From assembly GCA_946413245.1 (NCBI GenBank), contig CAMKJS010000029.1, forward strand, positions 1 through 34,602: 34,602 nt of DNA, given 5' to 3'. This document shows, one piece after another, positions 1,408-26,846 of the stretch. The notes beneath the pieces are model-generated. The model was not told where the DNA came from. It made no database searches and saw only the letters and a list, made by a program, of their open reading frames with translations. Made by a program: the position numbers and the translations under genes. The stretch comes from an uncultured Clostridia bacterium (GTDB lineage Bacteria; Bacillota; Clostridia; Christensenellales; Aristaeellaceae). Every line of letters starts with the position of its first letter. The stretch's first letter is position 1.

Positions 1408-3240
1408 ATGGCAAAGTTCGCAATCGCGTGCCCCGTGTGCGGGAAGTACGCTGAAGGAAAAACCGGATTCTTTGCAAGGAAGAAGATCGAATGCTCCTGC
1501 GGGAACATCATTGATATCAGGACAGACAAGCTGGCAGCTAAGGAATGCCCTTTTTGCGGCAACCAGGTTGTATTTGACCAGACGAAAGGCGCTGATGCAG
1601 CTTGCCCTGTTTGTCAAGGAAAGATCAATACAGTAGCGGATCAGCAGAGATTATATGTATTCTCCTGCAAGCAGTGTGGGATTCGTCTTTCGACTGCCGA
1701 CAGCGCTTCGGTATTTACCTGCCCTGTTTGCGATTTCCGGAATGACGTTCAGGAACGCCTGGTTTCTGAGAAGATCCGGAAAGACGGACTGGCCAGCATT
1801 ATAAAATATGAAGGTGACAATTCCACCTTTATCTGGAAGCACCCGATCGAGGACTTCAATTACGGTTCTCAACTGATCGTCCATGAGAGCCAGGAGGCTA
1901 TTTTCTTCAAAGATGGCCAGGCACTGGATCTGTTTGGACCGGGCAGATATACGCTGGAAACCCAGCAGCTTCCTCTCCTGGAGAAGACCTACAATCTTCC
2001 TACAGACACAGAGGGCACTTTCCATTCTGAAGTATATTTCATCAACAAAACTGTACAGATGGGAATCAAATGGGGTACTCCGGAGAAAGTGCGCTTCATT
2101 GATCCCCTGACTGGGACACCCCTCCAGTTAGGAGCATCCGGTGAGATGAACATGCAGGTTTCCAATTCCCGGAAGCTGCTTGTCAAACTGGTCGGCACCA
2201 TGAAGGGTATCTCATGGGAGGAAGGCCCTGGGTTTACGAAATCCCTGCAGGCATCCTTCCGTCCGTTGATTACCAGCGCTGTGAAAGTTAATCTGCCGAC
2301 GGTCATCAACAAGGAAGCTATTGATATCCTTGAAATTGACTCCAAGCTGGACATCATTTCCGCCAGCTTGCGGGAAGCGATTCTGCCCGGTTTTGACGAA
2401 TATGGCCTGGCGGTTCCGCAGTTTTATGTCACGAATGTTGTCCTTCCGGAAGAAGATCCGAATTTCAGGCGCATCCGTGAACTGCACACGATCACGCTTC
2501 AGACCAGGATTTATCAGGCTGAAGCGACTGTAAAGGCGGCAAAAGCGCAAAGTGAAACCCTGTACAGAACGGCGGAAGAACAGAGTAAGGCAGCCATTGA
2601 AGCTGCTCATCGTGAAGCGGAATTACAAAGGCAGACAACGGAAACCGAGATTGCAAAGCGTGAAGCCGAACGGAAGGTCATCGGAGCGCAGGCGGAGGCG
2701 CAGGCACAGAGGATGGCTGGTCTGACCGAAGCGGAAATCATGCGGGCTAAAGGCTACACCCAGAGAGATGTTCTGCAGGCGGAGGTACAGAAATCCTACG
2801 CAGAGGGCATTGGAAATATGGGCCCCGTTGTATCCGGCGGTGGCGGTGGAAGCAGTATTGTCGGAGATATGATGGGCCTGGGCGTCGGAATGGCCGCGGC
2901 AAGCACGATTGCTCCGCAGCTCGGGAATATGATGCAAGGATTCAATCCGCAGGGGCAACCGGCAGCTGTTCCCTTCGCAGGTGAGACCTGGGAATGCACC
3001 TGCGGTTTGAAGGGGATTACCGGGAATTTCTGCAGTAATTGCGGCAGCAGGAAACCAACGCCTGCAGCAGCTAATACATGGGATTGCGCATGTGGGCAAA
3101 AAGGGATTACCGGCAACTTCTGCTCCAACTGCGGGGCAAGGCGCCCGGAAGCAAAACCGGCAACATGGGATTGCACCTGCGGCAGAAAAGGCATCACCGG
3201 AAACTTCTGCGATAACTGCGGAAAGAAGAGGGAGGACTAA
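1408..3240 (+). CDS. SPFH-domain scaffold protein with N- and C-terminal zinc ribbons
   Basis: 610 residues, preceded by AAGGAGG. The first ~110 residues hold six cysteine pairs (C8/C11, C29/C31, C47/C50, C66/C69, C87/C90, C105/C108), forming about three zinc ribbons. An SPFH (stomatin/flotillin-like) domain of the YdjI or 'virion core protein' type follows at about 145-365. Then comes an Ala/Glu/Arg-rich coiled coil at about 370-470, a glycine-rich hydrophobic segment, and three copies of a CxCGxKGITGNFCxNCG zinc ribbon starting at W528, W558 and W587. Known background: in Bacillus subtilis YdjI helps bring PspA to the membrane together with YdjG and YdjH. SPFH proteins form membrane-bound oligomeric rings or microdomains, so this one may scaffold the TIR proteins that share its zinc ribbons; that link is inferred. 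Confidence 0.88.
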   Translation: MAKFAIACPVCGKYAEGKTGFFARKKIECSCGNIIDIRTDKLAAKECPFCGNQVVFDQTKGADAACPVCQGKINTVADQQRLYVFSCKQCGIRLSTADSASVFTCPVCDFRNDVQERLVSEKIRKDGLASIIKYEGDNSTFIWKHPIEDFNYGSQLIVHESQEAIFFKDGQALDLFGPGRYTLETQQLPLLEKTYNLPTDTEGTFHSEVYFINKTVQMGIKWGTPEKVRFIDPLTGTPLQLGASGEMNMQVSNSRKLLVKLVGTMKGISWEEGPGFTKSLQASFRPLITSAVKVNLPTVINKEAIDILEIDSKLDIISASLREAILPGFDEYGLAVPQFYVTNVVLPEEDPNFRRIRELHTITLQTRIYQAEATVKAAKAQSETLYRTAEEQSKAAIEAAHREAELQRQTTETEIAKREAERKVIGAQAEAQAQRMAGLTEAEIMRAKGYTQRDVLQAEVQKSYAEGIGNMGPVVSGGGGGSSIVGDMMGLGVGMAAASTIAPQLGNMMQGFNPQGQPAAVPFAGETWECTCGLKGITGNFCSNCGSRKPTPAAANTWDCACGQKGITGNFCSNCGARRPEAKPATWDCTCGRKGITGNFCDNCGKKRED

Positions 3241-3243
3241 TCC

Positions 3244-3930
3244 ATGACGAAGAATACGATGAGAGGCTTTTTCACACTTGTGATTTTGCTCGCAGTGTTC
3301 AGCGTAATTGCGTTTGTGATTCCGTTCCCTAAAAACACTGTGTTCTGGATCGCATATGCTTGCGGCATTTTTTCGATTCTTTTCCAGCTTTACATTTTCA
3401 AGTCATCTTTCGGTAAAGAAGATGCTAGAAGCAGATTCTATGGCTTCCCGATTGCTCGGTTGGGAATCTATTATCTGGTCGTTCAACTTATCGTAAGCAT
3501 TATAGAGATAGCACTTTCAAAGTTCCTCCCGACATGGGTCGTAATCCTAATCAATGTTTTGATCCTTGCTGCTGCACTAGTAGGCTGCATCACAACGGAA
3601 ACCATGCGGGATGAGATCGCAGCGCAAGATACGAAATTAAAAAAGAGTGTTTCCAACATGCGTGAACTACAGTCACTTACTGCATCTCTGGTCAACCAGG
3701 CAGATGATGCCGAGTTGAAAAAGTTACTGCAGAAAGTTGCTGATGAGTTTCGTTATAGTGATCCATTGACATCTGATAAAACAAGTGCGCTGGAAGAGGA
3801 TATGCATAGCCAGATTGGCGATCTGCAGCAAGCTCTTGTAGATGGTGATGTTGTTGGAACTAAGACGCTTTGTTCGAAACTACTGGACTGCTTGAGGGAA
3901 CGTAACAGGATCTGTTCTATCAACAAGTAA
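3244..3930 (+). CDS. Four-helix membrane protein with cytoplasmic helical tail, unknown function
   Basis: 228 residues, starting three bases after the SPFH stop, with the ribosome binding site inside the end of that gene (AGAGGGAGGA). Hydrophobic segments lie at about 8-27, 31-50, 72-92 and 98-117. The remaining ~110 residues are charged and helical, with likely coiled-coil stretches (KLKKSVSNMRELQSLTASL), and probably cytoplasmic. I do not recognise a named family. Tight linkage to the SPFH gene suggests a membrane partner of that scaffold, much as NfeD-like or YdjG/H-like proteins accompany SPFH proteins elsewhere. Base composition becomes clearly AT-richer from here to 5846 than in the flanking chromosome. 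Confidence 0.7.
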   Translation: MTKNTMRGFFTLVILLAVFSVIAFVIPFPKNTVFWIAYACGIFSILFQLYIFKSSFGKEDARSRFYGFPIARLGIYYLVVQLIVSIIEIALSKFLPTWVVILINVLILAAALVGCITTETMRDEIAAQDTKLKKSVSNMRELQSLTASLVNQADDAELKKLLQKVADEFRYSDPLTSDKTSALEEDMHSQIGDLQQALVDGDVVGTKTLCSKLLDCLRERNRICSINK

Positions 3931-3962: not shown

Positions 3963-5846
3963 ATGATCATCAAGTGTAAGATGTGCGGAGGCAACCTGAG
4001 TATTCAGGAAGGAAATCCGATATGTGAATGCGAGTTTTGTGGAACAAAGCAGACCATTCCTCAAGTAAATAATGAGAAAAAAGGGAATCTATTTAATCGT
4101 GCTAATCGTCTGCGCATGGGTGCAGAATTTGATAAAGCCGCGACTGTTTATGCTTCTATTGTTGCGGAATTTCCAGAGGAGGCGGAGGCTTATTGGGGCC
4201 TTTGTTTGTGCAAATACGGTATAGAATATGTTGATGATCCTGCTACAGGGGCTAAAATACCCACATGCCATCGTACATTATCTGCGTCGATAATGGATGA
4301 TAGCGATTTTATTCAAGCCTGTGAAAATGCAGACCCTATAGCAAAGAAATTCTATCGGGAAGAGGCAAAAACAATCGATCGCCTTCAGCAGGACATTTTG
4401 AGTATAGTTGCAAACGAAAAGCCCTATGATGTCTTTATTTGTTATAAAGAAACGGACGAAGAAGGGAATCGGACTGAAGACAGTGTCATTGCGCAGGATA
4501 TCTACGAGGCTCTAACTGGAAAGGGATTGAAGGTGTTTTTTTCCAGGATTACTCTGGAGGACAAACTTGGGCAGCAGTATGAACCATATATTTATTCAGC
4601 ACTTCATTCAGCCAGGGTTATGCTCGCTATAGGAACAAAGTATGAGTACTATGATGCAGTCTGGGTAAAGAATGAATGGGCGCGTTTCTTGGATATGATG
4701 CGCTCCGAAAAAGAAAAAACAATCATTCCATGCTACAAAGATATCGATGCATATGACATGCCTCGTGAGTTTAAAAATCTACAGGCACAGGATATGGGTA
4801 AGCTTGGCTGGCTACAGGATTTGACACGTGGTGTATTGAAACTGTGCGGAAAAGGACAACCAACCCAAGTGGTTCAGCAAGTAGTACAAACTCACGACCC
4901 ATCGGTAGAGAGCCTGCTTCGCAGAGCATTTGTATTCCTGGAAGATCATAAATGGGAAAGCGCCAAGGAATATGCGGAAAAAGTTCTTGATCATGAGGTT
5001 GAAAATAGTCGAGCATATCTGGTTGAGTTAATGGCTTCAAGAGAAGTGGGAACGGAATCCGAATGGAACGATCAGATTGTTCCGATAGACGATGATGAAA
5101 ACTATAGGAAAATAATACGATTTGGCGATGATGAACTCGTAAATTTCATAAAGCGAAAGAATGCTGAGATTAATGCAAGGCTTGCAGAGGAGAAGAGACG
5201 TGAAAGAGTAAACGAATTGCTTGAAAGAATCCGATTAGCAAGGACAGTAGAAGAATGTGCATCTATTATTACTGATGCCAAAGAAAATGATTATAATGAT
5301 TCCGAGTTGCAAGAAGCCCTTGGCGAAGTAGAAAAGAAAAGAAAAAAGTATGAAGCCAAACAGAAAGCAGAAGAACTCAGGAAAAAGAATAACGAACGCA
5401 AAGAAGATTGTTCTCGTTATCCAAGAGAATGCATTGGTGCAAAAGAATCCGTGAGGATTGCTCGTTTGCGGGTTGAAACATTGCAGCGCCAGATTAATCT
5501 CCGTAAAAAAGATCTTGAGAGTATCTGGGATATGTTTGGAGGGAAAAAGCGGAAAGCTGCCATTGAAGAAGAAATATGCAAACTTCAGCAAGAGCTCGAC
5601 CAAGCAAGAGAAAAGCATGAAGCGGAACAAAAAAAAATGAACGAATTGCTGGCACAGGAGTCCATCAGAACTGCACCACCATTAAGTTATAGTGAATTGA
5701 CATATCAGATAGCTCTGATTTTCTACGAAGCCCAGGATTACGAAAGTGCCTATCAGTATTATAACCAAATCAAAGGATATTCTGATGTTGATGAAAGATT
5801 GAGTAATGATCCTAATCTTCAGAAGATCAACATGAGCCGGCATTAA
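3963..5846 (+). CDS. Soluble zinc-ribbon/TIR protein with coiled coil (TIR-1)
   Basis: 627 residues. Domains in order: a zinc ribbon (C5/C8 with CxxC near residue 23), a TPR-like repeat around 45-85, and a TIR domain from about 152 to 290. The TIR has the strand YDVFICYKETD (D156), the loop region FFSRITLEDKLGQQYEPYIY and VWVKNEWARF, where E238 sits at the place of the catalytic glutamate of NAD-cleaving TIRs. A second TPR-like pair at about 315-350 and a long charged coiled coil at about 395-570 follow, with a final TPR-like element (YEAQDYESAYQYYNQI). Unlike the two later paralogues it has no transmembrane segment and no lectin-like C-terminus, so it should be cytoplasmic. It is markedly AT-rich. 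It could be a signalling partner or an ancestral form; the NADase activity is inferred from E238. Confidence 0.88.
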   Translation: MIIKCKMCGGNLSIQEGNPICECEFCGTKQTIPQVNNEKKGNLFNRANRLRMGAEFDKAATVYASIVAEFPEEAEAYWGLCLCKYGIEYVDDPATGAKIPTCHRTLSASIMDDSDFIQACENADPIAKKFYREEAKTIDRLQQDILSIVANEKPYDVFICYKETDEEGNRTEDSVIAQDIYEALTGKGLKVFFSRITLEDKLGQQYEPYIYSALHSARVMLAIGTKYEYYDAVWVKNEWARFLDMMRSEKEKTIIPCYKDIDAYDMPREFKNLQAQDMGKLGWLQDLTRGVLKLCGKGQPTQVVQQVVQTHDPSVESLLRRAFVFLEDHKWESAKEYAEKVLDHEVENSRAYLVELMASREVGTESEWNDQIVPIDDDENYRKIIRFGDDELVNFIKRKNAEINARLAEEKRRERVNELLERIRLARTVEECASIITDAKENDYNDSELQEALGEVEKKRKKYEAKQKAEELRKKNNERKEDCSRYPRECIGAKESVRIARLRVETLQRQINLRKKDLESIWDMFGGKKRKAAIEEEICKLQQELDQAREKHEAEQKKMNELLAQESIRTAPPLSYSELTYQIALIFYEAQDYESAYQYYNQIKGYSDVDERLSNDPNLQKINMSRH

Positions 5847-5968: not shown

Positions 5969-8929
5969 ATGATCATCAAATGCAAGATGTGCGGAGGGGA
6001 TATTCAGTTCAACCCCGGAGATACATGTGGCCAGTGCGATCATTGTGGGTGTACGACTACTTTCCCGAAACTTCCGGATGAACAAAGGACAAATCTGTTC
6101 AATCGTGCCAACCATTTCCGGCGTCAATGTGAATTCGATAAGGCTATGGCGGCATATGAGCACATCCTGGAAGTGGATGACACAGATGCAGAAGCCCACT
6201 GGGGTATTGTGCTCAGCAAGTTTGGAATCGAATATGTAGAGGATCCTGTCACACACGAACGGATTCCTACCTGCCATCGCGCTCAGGTCATCTCTATTCT
6301 CTCAGATGAAGACTACCAGAATGCGGTCAAGTACGCTCCAGACATGCAGTCCCGGGATATTTACGAACAGGAAGCAAAACGGATCGCCGAAATCCAGAAA
6401 GGGATTCTGGCGATCTCTTCTCAGGAAAAGCCGTATGACGTTTTCATTTGCTATAAGGAGACTGACGATAACGGGCAGCGTACACATGACAGCCAGTGGG
6501 CGCAGGAAGTCTATTATGGCTTAATAGAACAGGGCTACAAAGTGTTTTTCAGCCGGATCACCCTGGAAGATAAGCTGGGGCAGGAATACGAGCCCTATAT
6601 CTTCGCTGCGCTACAGTCTGCACGCGTAATGGTGGTGATCGGCAGCAAGCCTGAGTATTTCAATGCGGTGTGGGTGAAGAATGAGTGGAGCCGCTATCTC
6701 GCATTAATGGTACACGATCGCAAGCGGCTGCTGATCCCCTGTTACCGTGGCATGGACCCATATGATCTGCCGGATGAGCTGAGCAGCCTGCAGAGCCTTG
6801 ATATGAGCAAGATTGGCTTTATACAGGATCTGATCCGAGGCATCCGGAAAGTGCTGGATGCAGACAAAAAAACTGAGCAGCCTAAGGTTATTCAGCAGGT
6901 GGTGCAGACCACGGGATCCGATGCCGCATCACCCGGTGTGGCCAGCCTGATGAAACGTATTAAGCTCTTCCTGGAGGACGGCGATTTTAAGCAGGCTTCC
7001 GAGTACATCGACCGGGTACTTGATATTGATCCTGAGTATGCTCCCGCCTATGCCGCGAAGGTATGCGTAACCTTTGGCATGCGTAAGGAAGCTGATCTCG
7101 CGGAAACCACCTACCAGTATGAAGACAACCCGGACTGGCAGAAGGCCCTTCGCTTTGCGAACTCGCAGCAGAAATCGGACTATGAGGACTATGCTGCGAA
7201 GGTAAAAGGACGGGTTGACCGGCAGATCCGTGACTATGCCTGGGACTGTGCCATGGAGATGGCCGTTCTGCCAGGCGCCGACAGAGGAAAGCTGGATGCC
7301 GAACTTGCCGCTTACAAGGCTTCCTGCACCAGTTCCACAGGGAAGCGGGCAGACGGAAGCCGTCGGGCTGGCAGCCGGATGAAGGAAGATGCTTTCAATC
7401 AGGCGGTGAAGTCCAACGAGCCGGGTGATGTATCGGAATCCAGCCTGAAGACTGCCGCCGCCATGTTTGCGGCAATCGGAGACAGCGAAGCCGATGAACG
7501 CGCAAGGCAATGCAAGGCACTGGCGGAACAGGCCCGGCAAAAAGCAGTCTATCTGAACGCGGCCGGAATGCACAGTAGAGAGCAGCGCAGCCCCTCCGGC
7601 CTTGAAGAGATGGCCAGACTGTTCCTGACCGTACCGGATTATAAAGATGCCAGGCAGCAGGCGCAGGCCTGCGTCGATGCGGCGGAATCCATTCGCGCCG
7701 GCCTGTACGACAGCGCCGTCAGCGCCATGAACGCTGCAGGCGAAGAGAGCAGCAAATGGGATACAGCAAAAAAGAAGCTTGCCGGGACTGAATTGAACGA
7801 CTATCGCGATGTATCTCAGCTTCGCGTAAAAGCAGCCAAACGCTACGAAGAATGCGCGGCTGCCGAACAGGAAGCCAGGCGCCAGGCGGAAGAGAGACAG
7901 CACCGCGAAGCGGAAGCTGCGGCGGCAAAGAAGAAGCGCAACACACTTCTTGGTCTCCTGGCGGCTGTGGCTGTCGTTGCCGTCGTGCTTGTCGTGACGC
8001 TGGTCATTATACCTGGAAACAACTATCGGAACGCGGTGGCGCTGCAGCAAACGGGGAGATATGAGGAAGCGATAGAAGCATTCACAGCACTCGGGAACTA
8101 CTCAGATGCTGCGGCACAAATCACGGAGACACGATACCTGAAGGCGAAGGATCTGATGTCGAAGGGCGATTATGCTGGAGCCGTTGCAATCTTTATCGGG
8201 ATGAAAGGCTACAAAGATGTTGACAGCCTGCTTGTAAATGACCATGATCTTGCAGCAACAGCAGCAGTAGTAGCATCACGTGACGCGAAATATGCAGCAG
8301 GAAACCATGTAACCTTTGGCCATTATCCGCAGACGAGCGGAGGCAATGACAGCACAGAGATCGAGTGGCTGGTGCTGGCAAGGGATGGAAACAAAGCGTT
8401 GCTGATCAGCCGATACGGACTGGATGCAAAGCCGTACAACGAGGAATACGTGGATATCACTTGGGAAAAGTGCACACTGCGCACGTGGCTGAACGGGGCA
8501 TTCCTGAACAAAGCGTTTACCGCACAGGAGCAGACAGGCATCGTACTATCGAGCGTGGACAACAGCAGCACCCAGGGATACAGCAAGTGGAGCACGGGCG
8601 GCGGGAATAACTCACAGGACAAGGTCTTTCTGCTGAGCTATGCGGAAGCGAACAAATATTTCGGCGTCACAAACGAAAGCAGCAGCAACACGAAAACGAG
8701 AGTAGCGCCGACAGCGTATGCGATCAAGCAGGGAGCAAATACATCCAGCAGAAACAAAACAGTGGACGGGATAGACGCTGGGTGGTGGTGGCTGCGTTCC
8801 CCCGGCCTCATTCAGAGCTACGCCGCGCTCGTCTACTACTACGGCTCCCTCTACAGCAACGATGTCAACTATTTCAGCGGTTGTGTCCGCCCTGCTTTGT
8901 GGATCAATCTGGAATCTGATATCTTCTGA
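5969..8929 (+). CDS. Transmembrane TIR receptor with DUF6273/lectin-like variable C-terminus (TIR-2)
   Basis: 986 residues, start supported by GGGAGGGG. Order: zinc ribbon (C5, C8, C23, C26), TPR-like repeat at about 45-80, TIR at about 153-295 (YDVFICYKETD; FFSRITLEDKLGQEYEPYIF; VWVKNEWSRY with E239 at the catalytic glutamate position), TPR-like repeat at 324-365, and a long charged helical region to about 655. A single transmembrane helix at about 660-682 follows the basic cluster KKKR, predicting N-terminus inside and C-terminus outside. The outer part has two TPR-like units (YSDA, YKDV) at about 684-760 and a DUF6273-type domain at about 780-986. That domain ends with GWWWLRSPG (938-946) and GCVRPALWINL, a C-type-lectin/FGE-like signature. 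Residues 946-969 lie in a tract that differs from TIR-3 only at adenine-compatible sites (see 8780-8932). Confidence 0.9.
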   Translation: MIIKCKMCGGDIQFNPGDTCGQCDHCGCTTTFPKLPDEQRTNLFNRANHFRRQCEFDKAMAAYEHILEVDDTDAEAHWGIVLSKFGIEYVEDPVTHERIPTCHRAQVISILSDEDYQNAVKYAPDMQSRDIYEQEAKRIAEIQKGILAISSQEKPYDVFICYKETDDNGQRTHDSQWAQEVYYGLIEQGYKVFFSRITLEDKLGQEYEPYIFAALQSARVMVVIGSKPEYFNAVWVKNEWSRYLALMVHDRKRLLIPCYRGMDPYDLPDELSSLQSLDMSKIGFIQDLIRGIRKVLDADKKTEQPKVIQQVVQTTGSDAASPGVASLMKRIKLFLEDGDFKQASEYIDRVLDIDPEYAPAYAAKVCVTFGMRKEADLAETTYQYEDNPDWQKALRFANSQQKSDYEDYAAKVKGRVDRQIRDYAWDCAMEMAVLPGADRGKLDAELAAYKASCTSSTGKRADGSRRAGSRMKEDAFNQAVKSNEPGDVSESSLKTAAAMFAAIGDSEADERARQCKALAEQARQKAVYLNAAGMHSREQRSPSGLEEMARLFLTVPDYKDARQQAQACVDAAESIRAGLYDSAVSAMNAAGEESSKWDTAKKKLAGTELNDYRDVSQLRVKAAKRYEECAAAEQEARRQAEERQHREAEAAAAKKKRNTLLGLLAAVAVVAVVLVVTLVIIPGNNYRNAVALQQTGRYEEAIEAFTALGNYSDAAAQITETRYLKAKDLMSKGDYAGAVAIFIGMKGYKDVDSLLVNDHDLAATAAVVASRDAKYAAGNHVTFGHYPQTSGGNDSTEIEWLVLARDGNKALLISRYGLDAKPYNEEYVDITWEKCTLRTWLNGAFLNKAFTAQEQTGIVLSSVDNSSTQGYSKWSTGGGNNSQDKVFLLSYAEANKYFGVTNESSSNTKTRVAPTAYAIKQGANTSSRNKTVDGIDAGWWWLRSPGLIQSYAALVYYYGSLYSNDVNYFSGCVRPALWINLESDIF

Positions 8930-8932
8930 TCT
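8780..8932 (+). repeat. Putative DGR variable region, copy 1 (3' end of TIR-2)
   Basis: This tract aligns without gaps to 12749-12901 (offset 3969). Bases 8780-8805 and 8875-8932 are identical in both. Between them 14 positions differ: 8806, 8808, 8811, 8818, 8819, 8834, 8837, 8838, 8840, 8852, 8855, 8861, 8873 and 8874. Twelve are transversions, thirteen alter the amino acid, and nine have adenine in one copy. Just upstream the two genes differ in the normal scattered way. This is the pattern expected when two targets are overwritten from one template repeat with errors at adenines. Confidence 0.78.
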
Positions 8933-9041
8933 GAAATCAAAGAAAACGGACAAATCACCCGATCATTCGAACGTATTCTGCAACATGTGTCAGCCCCGGT
9001 ACAGAAGAAGCAGTAACATTATATTCAAAAGGAGTACAGCG

Positions 9042-9953
9042 ATGAAAAAAACGGAGCCAGGCATACTGTCCAATCGGCCTCAGTGCCTTCTCCTTGGGAA
9101 TGGCATTAACCTCCTGTTCAAAGATCCATCCTGGGAAATGCTGATCCGGGATGAACTGAACAAATCCGGATGCCCTTTGCCATATGAAGAAATCAAAAGC
9201 ATGCCGGCGACGATGCAGATTGTTGCGGCTACCGGTGACACCGTAGACAATCAGATGAAAGCCCTTGCCGGCAAGCTGGCGGTCCAGGATCTGACACAGG
9301 AGCGGATTGCTTTCCTGCGGAAAGTGCTGGAACTGCCGGTGGACGATATTATGACAGCCAATTACAGTTTTGAGCTCGAAACAGCGGACGGAATGAAGCA
9401 GGGTAGGAAACAGTACAGTTCTCGCCTTCAGGGTACATTTGATTTGCAGGCGAAGCATAAAGCATTCCGATTGTATCAGTTTTATGAAACAGGCATGGGG
9501 AAACGGATCTGGCATATACATGGAGACATTGCCAAACCGGATACGATGCTGATGGGGCATTACTACTATGCCAAGCAGCTGAAAGCCGTACAGGAATGCA
9601 TTGCGAAAACGGTCAGGAGGTATAAGACCTGCCAGCGGCAGAGTGAGGAATTCCGATCCTACAGCTGGGTGGATCAATTCCTGACAGGCGATGTCTATAT
9701 TCTCGGGCTTGGAATGTATCTGTGCGAATCAGACCTGTGGTATCTGCTGTGCTGCAAAAAGAGGAACTTTCCTGATACCAGCGTTTTCTTCTATGATAAG
9801 GAGTGCGGCGATCAGACGATCAGCACCATGTTGAGGACATACGGCGCCGAAATCATTGACGGAAAAGCCCTTGGAGCGGCCGGTGAATATATTGATTTTT
9901 ATGAGTGTGCGATGGCGGATATCAAAAGCAGGGCAGGAGGGAAACGGTCATGA
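9042..9953 (+). CDS. SIR2-like (sirtuin-fold) protein, candidate NADase
   Basis: 303 residues. The ATG at 9042 is preceded by AAAAGGAG; the frame is open further upstream, but that part overlaps the TIR-2 end and has no ribosome site. SIR2-type signatures occur in order: LLLGNGINLLF (residues 16-26, nucleotide-binding GxGxN), DIMTANYSFELE (N107, counterpart of the catalytic Asn of TNYD), RIWHIHGDI (H160, catalytic His), TMLMGHYYYAKQL, and GDVYILGLGM (the second Rossmann element). Known families: SIR2 proteins of this kind deplete NAD in bacterial defence systems such as Thoeris ThsA and DSR. This one lacks a SLOG domain and any extra sensor. It lies between two TIR receptor genes and overlaps the next start by four bases, so it is probably their effector or modulator (inference). 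Confidence 0.83.
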   Translation: MKKTEPGILSNRPQCLLLGNGINLLFKDPSWEMLIRDELNKSGCPLPYEEIKSMPATMQIVAATGDTVDNQMKALAGKLAVQDLTQERIAFLRKVLELPVDDIMTANYSFELETADGMKQGRKQYSSRLQGTFDLQAKHKAFRLYQFYETGMGKRIWHIHGDIAKPDTMLMGHYYYAKQLKAVQECIAKTVRRYKTCQRQSEEFRSYSWVDQFLTGDVYILGLGMYLCESDLWYLLCCKKRNFPDTSVFFYDKECGDQTISTMLRTYGAEIIDGKALGAAGEYIDFYECAMADIKSRAGGKRS

Positions 9954-12898
9954 TCATCAAATGCAAGATGTGCGGAGGAGATATCCTGTTTGCACAGGGC
10001 GACAGCGTCGGCCAGTGCGATCACTGCGGAAGCTCGAGCACGATTCCGAAGGTGGACGAGGAGCAGAAGCTGAACCGGTACAACCGGGCGAACCATTACC
10101 GGCGGCAGTGCGAGTTTGACAAGGCGATCACGGCGTACGAGCGGATTCTGGAAGAGGACGATACGGACGCGGAGGCCCACTGGGGCATTGTTCTGAGCCG
10201 TTATGGCATTGAATATGTGGAGGATCCGGCGACAAAGCGCCGGATACCGACCTGCCACCGGGTACAGGTGGAATCCATCCTGGCGGACGCGGATTACCAG
10301 GCGGCACTGAAGTATGCTCCGGACACCGTCAGCCGGAATCTGTATGAAGAACAGGCGAAGGAGATCGCGGAAATCCAAAAGGGTATCCTGGCGATTTCCC
10401 GGAATGAAAAGCCGTACGACGTTTTTATCTGCTACAAGGAGACGGATGAAAGCGGCCGGCGCACCCGGGATTCTGCTTTTGCGCAGGAAATCTATTACGG
10501 CCTGACGGAGCAGGGATATAAGGTGTTCTTCAGCCGGATCACCCTGGAGGATAAGCTGGGGCAACAGTATGAACCCTATATTTTTGCTGCACTGAACAGT
10601 GCCCGGGTCATGGTTGTCGTGGGAACGAAGCCGGAGTATTTCAACGCGGTCTGGGTGAAGAATGAGTGGAGTCGTTACCTCCACCTGATGAAATCCGACC
10701 GGCAACGTCTGCTGATTCCCTGTTACCGGGATATGGATCCCTATGACCTTCCGGAGGAGCTCAGCAATCTGCAGGCCCAGGATATGGGCCGGATTGGCTT
10801 TATCCAGGATCTGTTGCGCGGAGTCCGGAAAGTGTTAGACACTGAAAAGACCCATGAATCCGCACAAAAAGCGGAAGCGGTGAAAGCTGCGCCTCAAGCC
10901 GCTGGCGGCATTGCCCCGGGCGTTTCCAGCCTGATGGAAAGGGCACGACTGTTCCTGGAAGACGGAGATTTCCAGAGTGCGCAGGAATACTTAGACAGGG
11001 TACTGGACATTGATCCCAAATACGCTCCCGCTTATGCCGCGAAAGTCTGCGCTGCTTTCGGTTTGCGGAAAGAAGCGAACCTTGCCGGAACCACATTCCA
11101 GTATGAAGACAACCCGGACTGGCAGAAAGCGGTGCGGTTTGCCAATCCGCAGCAGAAAGATACCTATGAAGGATATATCGCAAAGGTAAGGGAACGGGTA
11201 CAGAAGCAGATCCGGGATTATGCATATGACTGCGCTGTTGAAATGGCTGTGAATCCGCGGGCGAACCGGGAACAGCTTAACAGCGAACTGGCAGTCTACA
11301 GAGAAACATGCCTCCGTTCTATGGGCAAACGAGCAAACGGAAGCCGCCGGGCAGACAGCCGGATGAAGGAGGATGCTTTCAACCGGGCAGTAAAAACTAA
11401 CGAGCCGGGCGATGTTTCAGGATCAGGGCTAATGTCTGCCGCCGGTATGTTTTCGGCAATCGGAGACAGCGAAGCCAATGAACGCGCAAAACAATGCAAG
11501 GCACTGGCGGAACAAGCCCGGCAAAAAGCAGTCTATCTGAACGCGGCCGGAATGCGCAGCAGAGAGCAGGGCAATCCTTCCGGCCTTGAAGAGGCGGCCA
11601 GACTGTTCCTGACCGTACCGGATTATAAAGACGCTAAGCAGCAGGCACAGGCATGCGCTGACGCGGCGGAATCCATCCGTGCCGGGTTGTATGACAGCGC
11701 TTTAGATGCTATGGACACGGCCGGCGAAGAGAGCAGTGGATGGGATATAGCAAAAAAGAGACTTGCCGAGATTGAATTGAACGGCTATCGTGATGTGGCC
11801 CAGCTTCGAGTAAAAGCAAAAAAACGTTATGAAGAATGTGTGTCTGCTGAACAGGAGGCCAGACGGCAGACAGAGGAAGCGGCCAGGAGAAAGGCTGAAG
11901 CAACAGCCAGAAAGATGAAGCGGACAATTCTGATCGTTAGCCTTGCCGCAGTCGTCGTTATCATCGCTGCCCTTGCTGTTACAAAGGTGATAATTCCGGG
12001 AACCCAGTATCAGAAAGCTATATCGCTCCGTGAATCCGGGCAATACTCGGAAGCGGTGAAAATCTTTACAGCACTCGGACAATACAGTGATGCCGCCGAG
12101 CAAAGTAAGGAAACAACGTATCAGGAAGCGAAATCCCTGATGGATGCTGGCTACTATGGCGGCGCTTTCGGAATCCTGACAAATCTCAAAGGCTATAAGG
12201 ACGTCGACAGCCTTCTAACGAATGATGATAATCTTTCTGCTGCCGCGTATCAGACACCGGGAAGCATGGTAAGCTTTGGAAAATACGAGCAGGATAATAA
12301 TTCCGCGAACGGCCCAGAGGAGATCGAGTGGATTGTGCTTGATTACGACATGCAGGCACAGAAGACACTACTGCTCAGCCGGTACGGATTGGATGCACAG
12401 CCTTACAACAAAGAGTATACAGACATTACTTGGGAAAACAGTACCCTGCGGGCATGGTTGAATGGAGAATTCCTGAATAAAGCGTTCAGTGAGGCCGAAC
12501 AATCTGAAATCCTGACGACGAAAGTGTACAATAGTCCATCCCAGGGATACAGCACATGGAACACGGAGGGAGGAAACAATACGCGGGACAAGATCTTTCT
12601 GCTGAGCTATGCGGAAGCGAACAAGTATCTTGGCGTCACACACGATAACAGCAGCAACACGAAATCGAGAGTAGCGCCGACAGCTTATGCGATCAAGCAG
12701 GGAGCATATATCTCTAGCAGCTACAAAACAGCGGACGGGGAAGCCGCCGGGTGGTGGTGGCTGCGTTCCCCCGGACGCAGTCAGAGACACGCCGCGCTCG
12801 TCAACATCGACGGCTCCCTCAACTGCAACAATGTCAACTATGACAGCGGTTGTGTCCGCCCTGCTTTGTGGATCAATCTGGAATCTGATATCTTCTGA
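9950..12898 (+). CDS. Transmembrane TIR receptor with DUF6273/lectin-like variable C-terminus (TIR-3)
   Basis: 982 residues. The ATG at 9950 overlaps the SIR2 stop (ATGA) and follows GGCAGGAGGG; it aligns exactly with the MIIKCKMCGG start of both paralogues, so an upstream GTG in the same frame is rejected. The domain order matches TIR-2: zinc ribbon, TPR-like repeat, TIR with E239 in VWVKNEWSRY, a second TPR-like repeat, long helical region, basic KMKR, transmembrane helix at about 660-679, two outer TPR-like units, and a DUF6273-type domain ending in GWWWLRSPG (934-942) and GCVRPALWINL. Similarity to TIR-2 is uneven, being higher in the helical region and almost complete at the 3' end. Coupling to the SIR2 gene suggests balanced expression of receptor and SIR2 protein. 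Confidence 0.9.
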   Translation: MIIKCKMCGGDILFAQGDSVGQCDHCGSSSTIPKVDEEQKLNRYNRANHYRRQCEFDKAITAYERILEEDDTDAEAHWGIVLSRYGIEYVEDPATKRRIPTCHRVQVESILADADYQAALKYAPDTVSRNLYEEQAKEIAEIQKGILAISRNEKPYDVFICYKETDESGRRTRDSAFAQEIYYGLTEQGYKVFFSRITLEDKLGQQYEPYIFAALNSARVMVVVGTKPEYFNAVWVKNEWSRYLHLMKSDRQRLLIPCYRDMDPYDLPEELSNLQAQDMGRIGFIQDLLRGVRKVLDTEKTHESAQKAEAVKAAPQAAGGIAPGVSSLMERARLFLEDGDFQSAQEYLDRVLDIDPKYAPAYAAKVCAAFGLRKEANLAGTTFQYEDNPDWQKAVRFANPQQKDTYEGYIAKVRERVQKQIRDYAYDCAVEMAVNPRANREQLNSELAVYRETCLRSMGKRANGSRRADSRMKEDAFNRAVKTNEPGDVSGSGLMSAAGMFSAIGDSEANERAKQCKALAEQARQKAVYLNAAGMRSREQGNPSGLEEAARLFLTVPDYKDAKQQAQACADAAESIRAGLYDSALDAMDTAGEESSGWDIAKKRLAEIELNGYRDVAQLRVKAKKRYEECVSAEQEARRQTEEAARRKAEATARKMKRTILIVSLAAVVVIIAALAVTKVIIPGTQYQKAISLRESGQYSEAVKIFTALGQYSDAAEQSKETTYQEAKSLMDAGYYGGAFGILTNLKGYKDVDSLLTNDDNLSAAAYQTPGSMVSFGKYEQDNNSANGPEEIEWIVLDYDMQAQKTLLLSRYGLDAQPYNKEYTDITWENSTLRAWLNGEFLNKAFSEAEQSEILTTKVYNSPSQGYSTWNTEGGNNTRDKIFLLSYAEANKYLGVTHDNSSNTKSRVAPTAYAIKQGAYISSSYKTADGEAAGWWWLRSPGRSQRHAALVNIDGSLNCNNVNYDSGCVRPALWINLESDIF

Positions 12899-12901
12899 TC
12901 T
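12749..12901 (+). repeat. Putative DGR variable region, copy 2 (3' end of TIR-3)
   Basis: Partner of 8780-8932. The encoded core reads GRSQRHAALVNIDGSLNCNN here against GLIQSYAALVYYYGSLYSND in TIR-2, while the framing residues (GWWWLRSP before, SGCVRPALWINLESDIF after) are the same. The Asn and Asp codons here (AAC, GAC) opposite TAC codons in TIR-2 suit AAC codons in the template, the usual DGR hot codon. The template itself is not in the window. Confidence 0.78.
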
Positions 12902-25508: not shown

Positions 25509-26846
25509 TTATTTAAATACGGCGGTTTCGCTCAGGCCCCTGGCCAGGAGCAGGGTCTTGTATTCATCCGCCTTGCCCTTGGGGCAGGTGACCTCGATGT
25601 CGGCGGCGAGCCCGGAGAAGGCGCCGGCCTTCACGTTCTTCTCGGTCAGCTTGGTGGCCTTGATCACCAGTTTGTTCAGCTTTCCGCAGCCCTTGAAGGC
25701 GTTCTTGCCGATCTTCTTCACGTTCTTGCCGATGGTGACGGTGGTCAGCTTCTTCAGACCCTTGCAGGCGTTGGCCGCGATGGCGGTAACCTTCAGTTCT
25801 TTCCCGTCCACCTTGATCGTGGCGGGAATCGTGATCTTCTTCACGTTCTTGCTTTCCACGCCCTCGAGGGTGGCCGCGGTGGCGGTGACGCTGTAGCGGA
25901 GCCCGTCCACCATGATGGTGGAGGCTTCGACGATCATCACGGTGCTTTCATCCAGAATGATGTCGGCGTCGTCCCCGTTCCGGTAGACGATAAATCCGTC
26001 CGATTTGTCCGGCTTGACGGAGAGCACCAGATTCTTGAGCACGTCGCAGCTGCTGACGTCCAGGGAGGCCAGGCGGTTGAAGGCGCAGTCCAGGGTTTCC
26101 AGCGCGTCGTTCTCCGCCAGGATCAGGGTTTCCAGCTTATTGCTGTGGCAGACCAGTTCCTTCAGCTCCGGATTGGCGCTCACATCCAGGGACGTGAGGA
26201 TGTTGTTGCTGCAGTACAGCGTGGTCAGCGCGGGGTTGCCGCTCAGATCCAGCACGCTGATCTGGCAGGAGTAGCAGGACAGAGTCGTCAGCGCCGGGCA
26301 CCCGGCCAGATTCAGCGTTCCTACGCCGCTGCCGAAACAGAACAGCGTGGTCAGCGCGGGATTGCCGCTCAGATCCAGCACCGTCATGCCGTTGGAGCCG
26401 CAGTACAGCTCCTTCAGCGCGGGACAGCCGGAGAGATCCAGAGAGGTGAGCCAGTTGTTCTCGCAGGAGAGCACCTCCAGCGCGGGCAGGGAACCCAGTA
26501 CCAGGGTGTCCAGCTGGTTGGAATCACAGGCCAGCCAGACCAGCGAAGGAAGTCCGGAGGCGTCCAGACGGGTCAGGCTGTTCCCGGTGACGTTCAGATG
26601 TGTCAGCGCGGTGAAGGCGCCGATGCCGTCCAGGGACTCAATCCCCCGGCCGGCGACATCGATCCGGGTGACGGCAGCGATTTCAGCGCCGCTGAGTACT
26701 CCGTCCTGATCGGTGTCAAACTCCCGCACGGCAGCGAGAAACTGCGTGTCGGGGAAAACGGTCTCGTTCAGTACCGCGTCGGCGGAGGCGGCGGCGCACA
26801 GAAGCACCATGGCCAGAGCGAGAATCCAGAGCACATGCTTCTTCAT
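25509..26846 (-). CDS. Secreted leucine-rich repeat protein with N-terminal EF-hand-like motif
   Basis: 445 residues from the ATG at 26846, behind AAGGAGAT; a longer frame to 26996 is rejected because the signal peptide MKKHVLWILALAMVLLCAAA starts here. After cleavage comes a calcium-binding-like loop DTDQDGVLSGAE (DxDxDG). About ten repeats of the form LTSLDLSGCPALKELYCGSN follow (roughly 75-290). The last part (about 300-445) changes to a BspA-like type (TIGKNVKKIGKNAFKGCGKL). Extracellular leucine-rich proteins of gut Clostridia are assumed to bind host, plant or bacterial surfaces. There is no sortase motif or transmembrane anchor, so it is probably released. Confidence 0.9.
   Translation of the reverse strand: MKKHVLWILALAMVLLCAAASADAVLNETVFPDTQFLAAVREFDTDQDGVLSGAEIAAVTRIDVAGRGIESLDGIGAFTALTHLNVTGNSLTRLDASGLPSLVWLACDSNQLDTLVLGSLPALEVLSCENNWLTSLDLSGCPALKELYCGSNGMTVLDLSGNPALTTLFCFGSGVGTLNLAGCPALTTLSCYSCQISVLDLSGNPALTTLYCSNNILTSLDVSANPELKELVCHSNKLETLILAENDALETLDCAFNRLASLDVSSCDVLKNLVLSVKPDKSDGFIVYRNGDDADIILDESTVMIVEASTIMVDGLRYSVTATAATLEGVESKNVKKITIPATIKVDGKELKVTAIAANACKGLKKLTTVTIGKNVKKIGKNAFKGCGKLNKLVIKATKLTEKNVKAGAFSGLAADIEVTCPKGKADEYKTLLLARGLSETAVFK

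Follow-up and report, generated by a model that had tools for sequence, protein, structure and literature searches.

Diversity-generating retroelements (DGRs) that act on proteins with a DUF6273 domain have been described from gut phages, among them the tentaclins and targets in Faecalibacterium prophages (PMC10743442, PMC11792537), and DGR-diversified putative antigen sensors have been reported from Thiohalocapsa PB-PSB1 and other multicellular bacteria, with TIR domains occurring in targets or next to them (PMC10907252). Membrane anchoring of cellular DGR targets has also been documented, in a paper whose main text does not contain the term TIR (PMC8144416), and DGRs have been placed in ternary conflict systems (PMC7159879); in the accessible text of two further papers, the single mention of TIR concerns retrons (PMC8867640) and DGRs are mentioned only in the reference list (PMC8195603). 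In the open-access main texts of the literature searched, there is precedent for targets with DUF6273, for targets with TIR and for targets in the membrane; no TIR receptor that is single-pass and bears a DUF6273 ectodomain diversified by a DGR was encountered there. Here we describe two genes on a 34,602-nt contig of an uncultured Clostridia bacterium of the Aristaeellaceae (CAMKJS010000029.1, assembly GCA_946413245.1; the whole contig is hereafter called the window), which we consider likely to encode paired single-pass membrane TIR receptors whose DUF6273 tips were rewritten by a DGR.

Two putative receptor genes with a matched pair of variable tracts

The stretches 8780-8932 and 12749-12901, at the 3′ ends of genes 1 and 2 (Table 1), align without gaps and differ at exactly 14 sites, all of which lie within a core of 69 bases (8806-8874). 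Twelve of these differences are transversions and 13 change an amino acid, the one at 8806 (GGC/GGA) being silent, while the 26 bases 5′ and the 58 bases 3′ of the core are identical between the tracts. These observations reproduce those of the first-pass annotation, a reading of the DNA letters that had proposed the two genes as DGR targets fed by one template. Fourteen sites placed at random in 153 bases would span 69 bases or fewer with P ~1e-4, and beyond 8932 and 12901 the two sequences diverge immediately. The scattered differences that had been noted upstream were likewise recovered: the genes share 72% identity in aligned codons, and codons that specify the same residue differ silently at 285/631 positions in the rest of the gene, compared with 1/23 in the variable regions (VRs).

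A further signature, which was computed independently of any template, lies in the third codon base. Among the non-synonymous codon differences of the VRs, 10/11 retain an identical pyrimidine in third position, as AAY codons in a template would predict; outside the VRs the proportion is 49/274 over the remaining gene (p=7e-7) and 13/56 over the remaining DUF6273 domain (p=4e-5). We give little weight to two earlier arguments for an adenine-rich template. That every site is compatible with A in a template holds for whichever two bases are compared, since any base can arise from a template A, and the presence of A in one copy at nine sites (9/14) resembles the 413/800 seen at differing sites elsewhere in the gene.

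The first-pass annotation had not named the TIR domain, the membrane helix, the DUF6273 domain or the operon. In genes 1 and 2, respectively, the TIR profile scored 51.7 and 51.3 bits (cut-off 28) and the DUF6273 profile (PF19789) 102.7 and 114.9 bits (cut-off 23.5); the TIR domain of gene 2 also gave a weak sequence match to Toll-like receptor (E 0.0025) and flax L6 TIR structures. The domains of gene 1 were assigned from Pfam (PF13676, PF19789, TPR), with the zinc ribbon judged from the sequence. Membrane helices were called from a hydropathy peak with preceding basic residues rather than from a dedicated topology predictor; in gene 1, the motif KKKR lies shortly upstream of the predicted helix and the N-terminus is predicted to be inside. 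An AlphaFold2 model of the gene 2 DUF6273 domain (pLDDT, predicted local distance difference test, 90.7) aligned in VIA-align with Treponema denticola TvpA (PDB 2y3c, Z 7.3) and with Bordetella phage Mtd (1yu3, Z 5.1). In each gene the variable repeat is thus 3′-terminal, and the encoded protein is assigned a lectin fold on these low Z scores and on what is reported in PMC10743442.

The constant 3′ tail that follows each VR is similar in many relatives' targets (23/33 tails were compared), and it is not continued in the templates of two related loci (L053 and L131). A conserved hairpin after the variable region is known from BPP-1. We looked for such a hairpin 3′ of the VRs and none could be shown, the two tails folding differently.

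Templates and cassettes in related genomes

The window's own assembly (134 contigs, 78.6% complete, with the window as the whole of contig C29) holds 10 DUF6273 domains. Since a DNA search of it with the tract (E up to 0.001) recovered only the two window tracts and one 66% match on contig C20, we compared the VRs with templates from two genomes of the same family, TR131 from genome G295 and TR053 from genome G053, over 113 positions. VR1 differs from TR131 at 13/28 adenine sites vs 7/85 others (p=2.6e-5) and VR2 at 10/28 vs 7/85 (p=0.0012); at the same positions, VR1 and VR2 differ from each other at 9/28 adenine sites vs 5/85 others (p=9e-4). The control comparison of TR131 with TR053 showed differences at 2/28 adenine sites vs 13/85 others, and so was without adenine bias. 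TR131 has A at nine of the 14 differing sites, or 10 when TR053 is added, and counting A in either template gave 10/33 adenine sites vs 4/80 others for VR1 against VR2.

Cassettes around such templates were found in several relatives. Contig C67 of G295 (isolate RUG11012; locus L131, also numbered L163) brings together an SPFH gene and a VR-bearing TIR-DUF6273 gene with an Asn-rich template and a reverse transcriptase (RT); the RT has an intact YMDD motif and adjoins this template, which is homologous to the window tract. A compact arrangement is that of locus L167, where a TIR-DUF6273 gene with a membrane helix (TIR-TM-DUF6273), an Avd-like gene, a template and an RT (YMDD) fall within 4.4 kb; here 21/21 mismatches between template and variable region lie at template adenines, making the TIR-TM-DUF6273 protein the target in cis. 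In L168 the order is SPFH, 232-aa protein, TIR-TM-DUF6273, Avd-like gene and RT, and the variable region contains a stretch of Ns; the Avd-like genes of L167 and L168 match below the cut-off, with E ~1e-8. In genome G053 (L053), the template is accompanied by an RT, by an Avd frame that contains a stop, by a protein that gives weak matches to P-loops and by a DUF6273 target of a different type. When each template was compared with its own target, changes were also seen at non-adenine sites, with 16/28 adenine sites vs 11/85 others in G295 (L163) and 18/31 vs 14/82 in G053 (L164). Through these relatives, the identification of VR1 and VR2 as DGR variable regions is strongly supported by sequence comparison, and that part of the first-pass proposal stands; the template, RT and Avd of the window's own genome were not found.

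Other cassettes differ in state or in target. The catalytic motif of the G053 RT (L053:4440-5522, - strand) is YMAD in place of YMDD, and this copy may be inactive. In G022, a genome of the same genus as the window, SPFH, a 219-aa homologue and TIR-TM-DUF6273 genes are followed by a 129-aa truncated DGR RT (L143:6538-6927, - strand), which we read from its sequence as a decayed cassette. At L186:6500-9073 and L187:6444-9077, DUF6273 DGR targets show 13/14 and 14/15 mismatches at template adenines, and by eye these targets look like fusions to P-loop/NACHT-type NTPase regions.

A scan of genome contigs with an RT profile yielded 202 RT loci, of which 80 were kept. An open reading frame (ORF) matching DUF6273 was present in the fetched DNA of 48/80 kept loci, in 38 of them with a length of at least 150 aa; at the other 10 only shorter ORFs match, possibly the template's own translation. 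TIR and DUF6273 occurred in one ORF at 4/80 loci (L163, L167, L168 and L173, the last with a short ORF of 346 aa). An adenine search given 10 loci returned template-target pairs for six (L167, L171, L186, L187, L220 and L196) and, under its thresholds, no pairs for L163, L164, L168 and L173. Within the family, at least 9/308 genomes, the window's own included, carry TIR and DUF6273 in one frame, a lower bound since two candidates were scored per genome. In viruses, none of the best 80 of 112 RT loci had TIR and DUF6273 in one ORF, nor did the one weak locus found in a viral scan with the TIR-DUF6273 alignment; DUF6273 itself was present in seven. Searches of phage and plasmid records did not recover the window tract, and a search of viral contigs for an exact match to a 20-base piece of the tract was likewise negative.

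Pairs of VRs within one genome pointed the same way. In seven genomes including the window's own, 19/19 pairs compared showed excess differences at template-A sites; this count leaves out tracts 575, 3695 and 5042 of G305 (L132), tract 7062 of G217 (L136) and the C20 tract of the window's genome, and the comparison did not extend to the pairs of tracts in G041, G344 and G053:C71. The cleanest pair came from G171, where a protein kinase-TM protein with FMN_bind and DUF6273 (L145, G171:C2) and a TIR-TM-DUF6273 receptor (L146, G171:C16) differ at 22/33 template-A sites vs 0/80 others, all at codon positions 1-2, as if one template had fed two receptor types. The RVT_1 search of G171 (89% complete, ~20 contigs) gave no match. 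Orphan variable regions of this kind recur; any one of several causes could account for them, namely mobile DNA left unbinned, gaps in the assembly, loss, or the sensitivity of the search.

Operon setting and weighing of alternatives

The receptor genes lie in a co-directional series in the order SPFH, 228-aa protein, TIR protein, receptor 1, AbiH-like gene and receptor 2 (Table 1), and SPFH homologues lie upstream of TIR-DUF6273 genes in L131, L168, L143 and L327. In L140 and L146, the surroundings of the TIR-DUF6273 genes yielded neither an SPFH gene nor the small-protein gene. The 303-aa protein between the receptors also matched the PADLOC LmuA model (E 2.8e-4). Among PADLOC/NCBIfam defence models, the receptors matched only weakly, to PDC-S66 (E 6.9e-5 and 5.1e-5), and gene 2 scored 22.1 bits against Thoeris III ThcB4 (cut-off 220) and 15.5 against a TIR retron model (cut-off 600). 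The TIR domain and the weak AbiH-like neighbour suggest a putative role in defence. Apart from the variable tracts, codons 503-552 of gene 1 (7475-7624) form an isolated patch of 92% nucleotide identity with gene 2, in which 40/43 same-residue codons are identical; this suggests gene conversion between the paralogues. Elsewhere in the window, a unit occurs five times head to tail at 26149-26504, with a spacing of 63 bases and 61-78% identity to the reference copy.

Table 1. Positions of the receptor genes, their domains and variable regions, and neighbouring genes in the window.
Feature	Position	Strand	Remarks
Gene 1 (986 aa), carries VR1	5969..8929	+	zinc ribbon, TPR, TIR, TPR/coil, membrane helix, DUF6273
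Gene 2 (982 aa), carries VR2	9950..12898	+	architecture as gene 1; Pfam and hydropathy
TIR domain, gene 1	6440..6811	+	PF13676, E 1.5e-13
TIR domain, gene 2	10421..10789	+	PF13676, E 2e-13
Predicted membrane helix, gene 1	7955..8011	+	aa 663; 19-residue hydropathy 3.4
Predicted membrane helix, gene 2	11924..11980	+	aa 659; 19-residue hydropathy 3.0
DUF6273 domain, C-type-lectin-like, gene 1	8390..8908	+	PF19789
DUF6273 domain, C-type-lectin-like, gene 2	12362..12877	+	PF19789
VR1	8780..8892	+	length as aligned to TR131 and TR053; core 8806-8874
VR2	12749..12861	+	aligned to TR131 and TR053; core 12775-12843
Constant 3′ tail after VR1	8893..8932	+	extends beyond stop codon; identical to 12862-12901 after VR2
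SPFH/Band_7_1 protein with zinc-ribbon-like stretches	1408..3240	+	PF13421, E 1.7e-36; upstream of and co-directional with receptors
228-aa protein, four hydrophobic stretches	3244..3930	+	homologues at same place in L168, L143, L327
Third TIR protein (zinc ribbon, TIR, coil)	3963..5846	+	DUF6273 and membrane helix not found (Pfam, hydropathy)
303-aa AbiH-like protein between receptor genes	9042..9953	+	PF14253, E 1.4e-5, 25.8 bits, below cut-off 30.9

Built on the observed difference pattern, the domain content and the relatives' homologous cassettes with the same target architecture, our preferred reading would work as follows. An error-prone RT would reverse-transcribe a template RNA rich in AAY codons, misreading its adenines, and the resulting cDNA would take the place of the 3′ portion of both genes; the changes would fall mostly on codon positions 1 and 2, with the constant flanks kept. 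Template and RT would act in trans, as a single set absent from the incomplete assembly. The lectin-fold DUF6273 domain would lie outside the cell and the TIR domain in the cytoplasm, such that a ligand bound outside would signal to the TIR domain inside, probably in defence or in the recognition of other cells or phages.

A number of results weigh against this reading. In the window's own assembly, no DGR RT was found with Pfam RVT_1, the G053 RT or a five-sequence RT profile; Avd was not found either; and the tract search revealed no template or third close DNA copy, so that the search of the rest of the genome proposed in the first-pass annotation, for a third near-copy beside a DGR RT, came back empty. 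Four of the 14 sites (8806, 8818, 8840 and 8873) are non-A in both TR131 and TR053, which, together with the missing third copy, RT and Avd, leaves the claim that one template feeds both genes unproven. Within the core alone the adenine bias is weak (9/27 vs 5/42, p=0.033). Among the 26 sites that are A in both templates, eight differ between the VRs, 13 are A in both and five share the same non-A base, so that the VRs cannot clearly be taken as two independent draws. Hypervariability at the same sites is also seen from genome to genome (0.63 vs 0.17), a pattern that selection could also yield. As to the relatives, the G295 target has no membrane helix by the same hydropathy scan, and the Avd frames of G053 and G295 are each interrupted by a stop and match below the cut-off. 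VR-like DNA (E up to 1e-10) was present in 22 of the 308 family genomes and a relative of the G053 RT (E up to 1e-20) in 28, and only five genomes have both; RVT_1 was not matched in 14/18 genomes searched, a search that also missed the G022 RT fragment.

Several of these points would also fit a frozen relic, in which the tracts were made by a DGR whose RT and template have since been lost, leaving only mutation and gene conversion to act now. The lack of RT, Avd and template in the assembly, the same-genus G022 operon followed only by a 129-aa RT piece, the four sites that are non-A in both relatives' templates, the five sites with a shared non-A base and the 17/22 family genomes with VR-like DNA in which an RT went undetected all favour it. 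Set against this, a missing cassette is unsurprising because the assembly is only 78.6% complete, and the single silent change among the 23 constant codons of the VRs indicates recent homogenisation. We regard loss of the cassette as possible and rather unlikely, and as a refinement of the DGR reading that does not exclude it.

An origin without any DGR, in which the tandem paralogues had their 3′ ends evened out by gene conversion and the core differences arose by diversifying selection on lectin loop codons, appears improbable. The patch at codons 503-552 indicates that conversion may happen here, and the hypervariability of the same sites across the family would fit selection, but conversion would not confine the 14 differences to a core between identical flanks, and selection predicts neither the fixed pyrimidine in 10/11 third positions nor the match to the relatives' template adenines; moreover, a TIR-TM-DUF6273 protein is itself a cis DGR target in L167. 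A misassembly that placed a single 3′ end on both genes, as might be suspected in a draft of 134 pieces, deserves hardly any credence: there are 14 clustered differences between the tails, the sequences part directly after 8932 and 12901, and similar pairs exist in six other genomes.

Comparison with described systems

Targeted hypermutation would here be joined to TIR proteins predicted to cross the membrane once, in bacteria of Clostridia type, to which L163, L167 and L168 also belong. With template, RT, Avd-like gene and TIR receptor together in 4.4 kb, L167 is a compact natural cassette that would make the question of which ligands diversified bacterial sensors bind testable. Judging from the window, a draft genome may hold variable regions separated from an RT that was lost or missed by assembly. 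On a broader view, which we advance tentatively and hold at slightly below even chances, these proteins would form a receptor family of Toll-like layout with anticipatory diversification driven by a retroelement, in which one trans-acting template feeds several membrane receptors per cell, as might be the case for the TIR pair in the window and for the TIR receptor and protein kinase in G171, coupling extracellular ligands to TIR or kinase responses.

The ectodomain of vertebrate Toll-like receptors consists of leucine-rich repeats. The likeness to these receptors is one of analogy, with TIR inside and a recognition domain outside, and we claim no common descent; in the window proteins the TIR domain lies towards the N-terminus, the ectodomain is lectin-like and diversification would be by a retroelement.

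Among bacterial systems, the gut-phage targets resemble the window proteins in that DUF6273 holds the VR (C-terminally in the Faecalibacterium set), a lectin-like fold is reported and two targets sometimes occur (PMC10743442, PMC11792537); they differ in being phage-encoded, whereas the window proteins are cellular TIR membrane proteins. The cyanobacterial DGR variable proteins likewise join a signalling domain to a variable lectin domain and can lie remote from the cassette, but are described as mostly predicted cytosolic with kinase as the commonest domain, where the window has TIR (PMC7517822). Similarly, the sensors of multicellular bacteria are reported to combine a lectin fold with domains of conflict systems, in some cases TIR, to carry membrane helices in some cases and to occur as several targets per system; their contexts are STAND/NACHT, CHAT and MoxR/vWA, whereas the window combines zinc ribbon-TPR-TIR proteins, predicted to be single-pass, with an SPFH operon and DUF6273 (PMC10907252).

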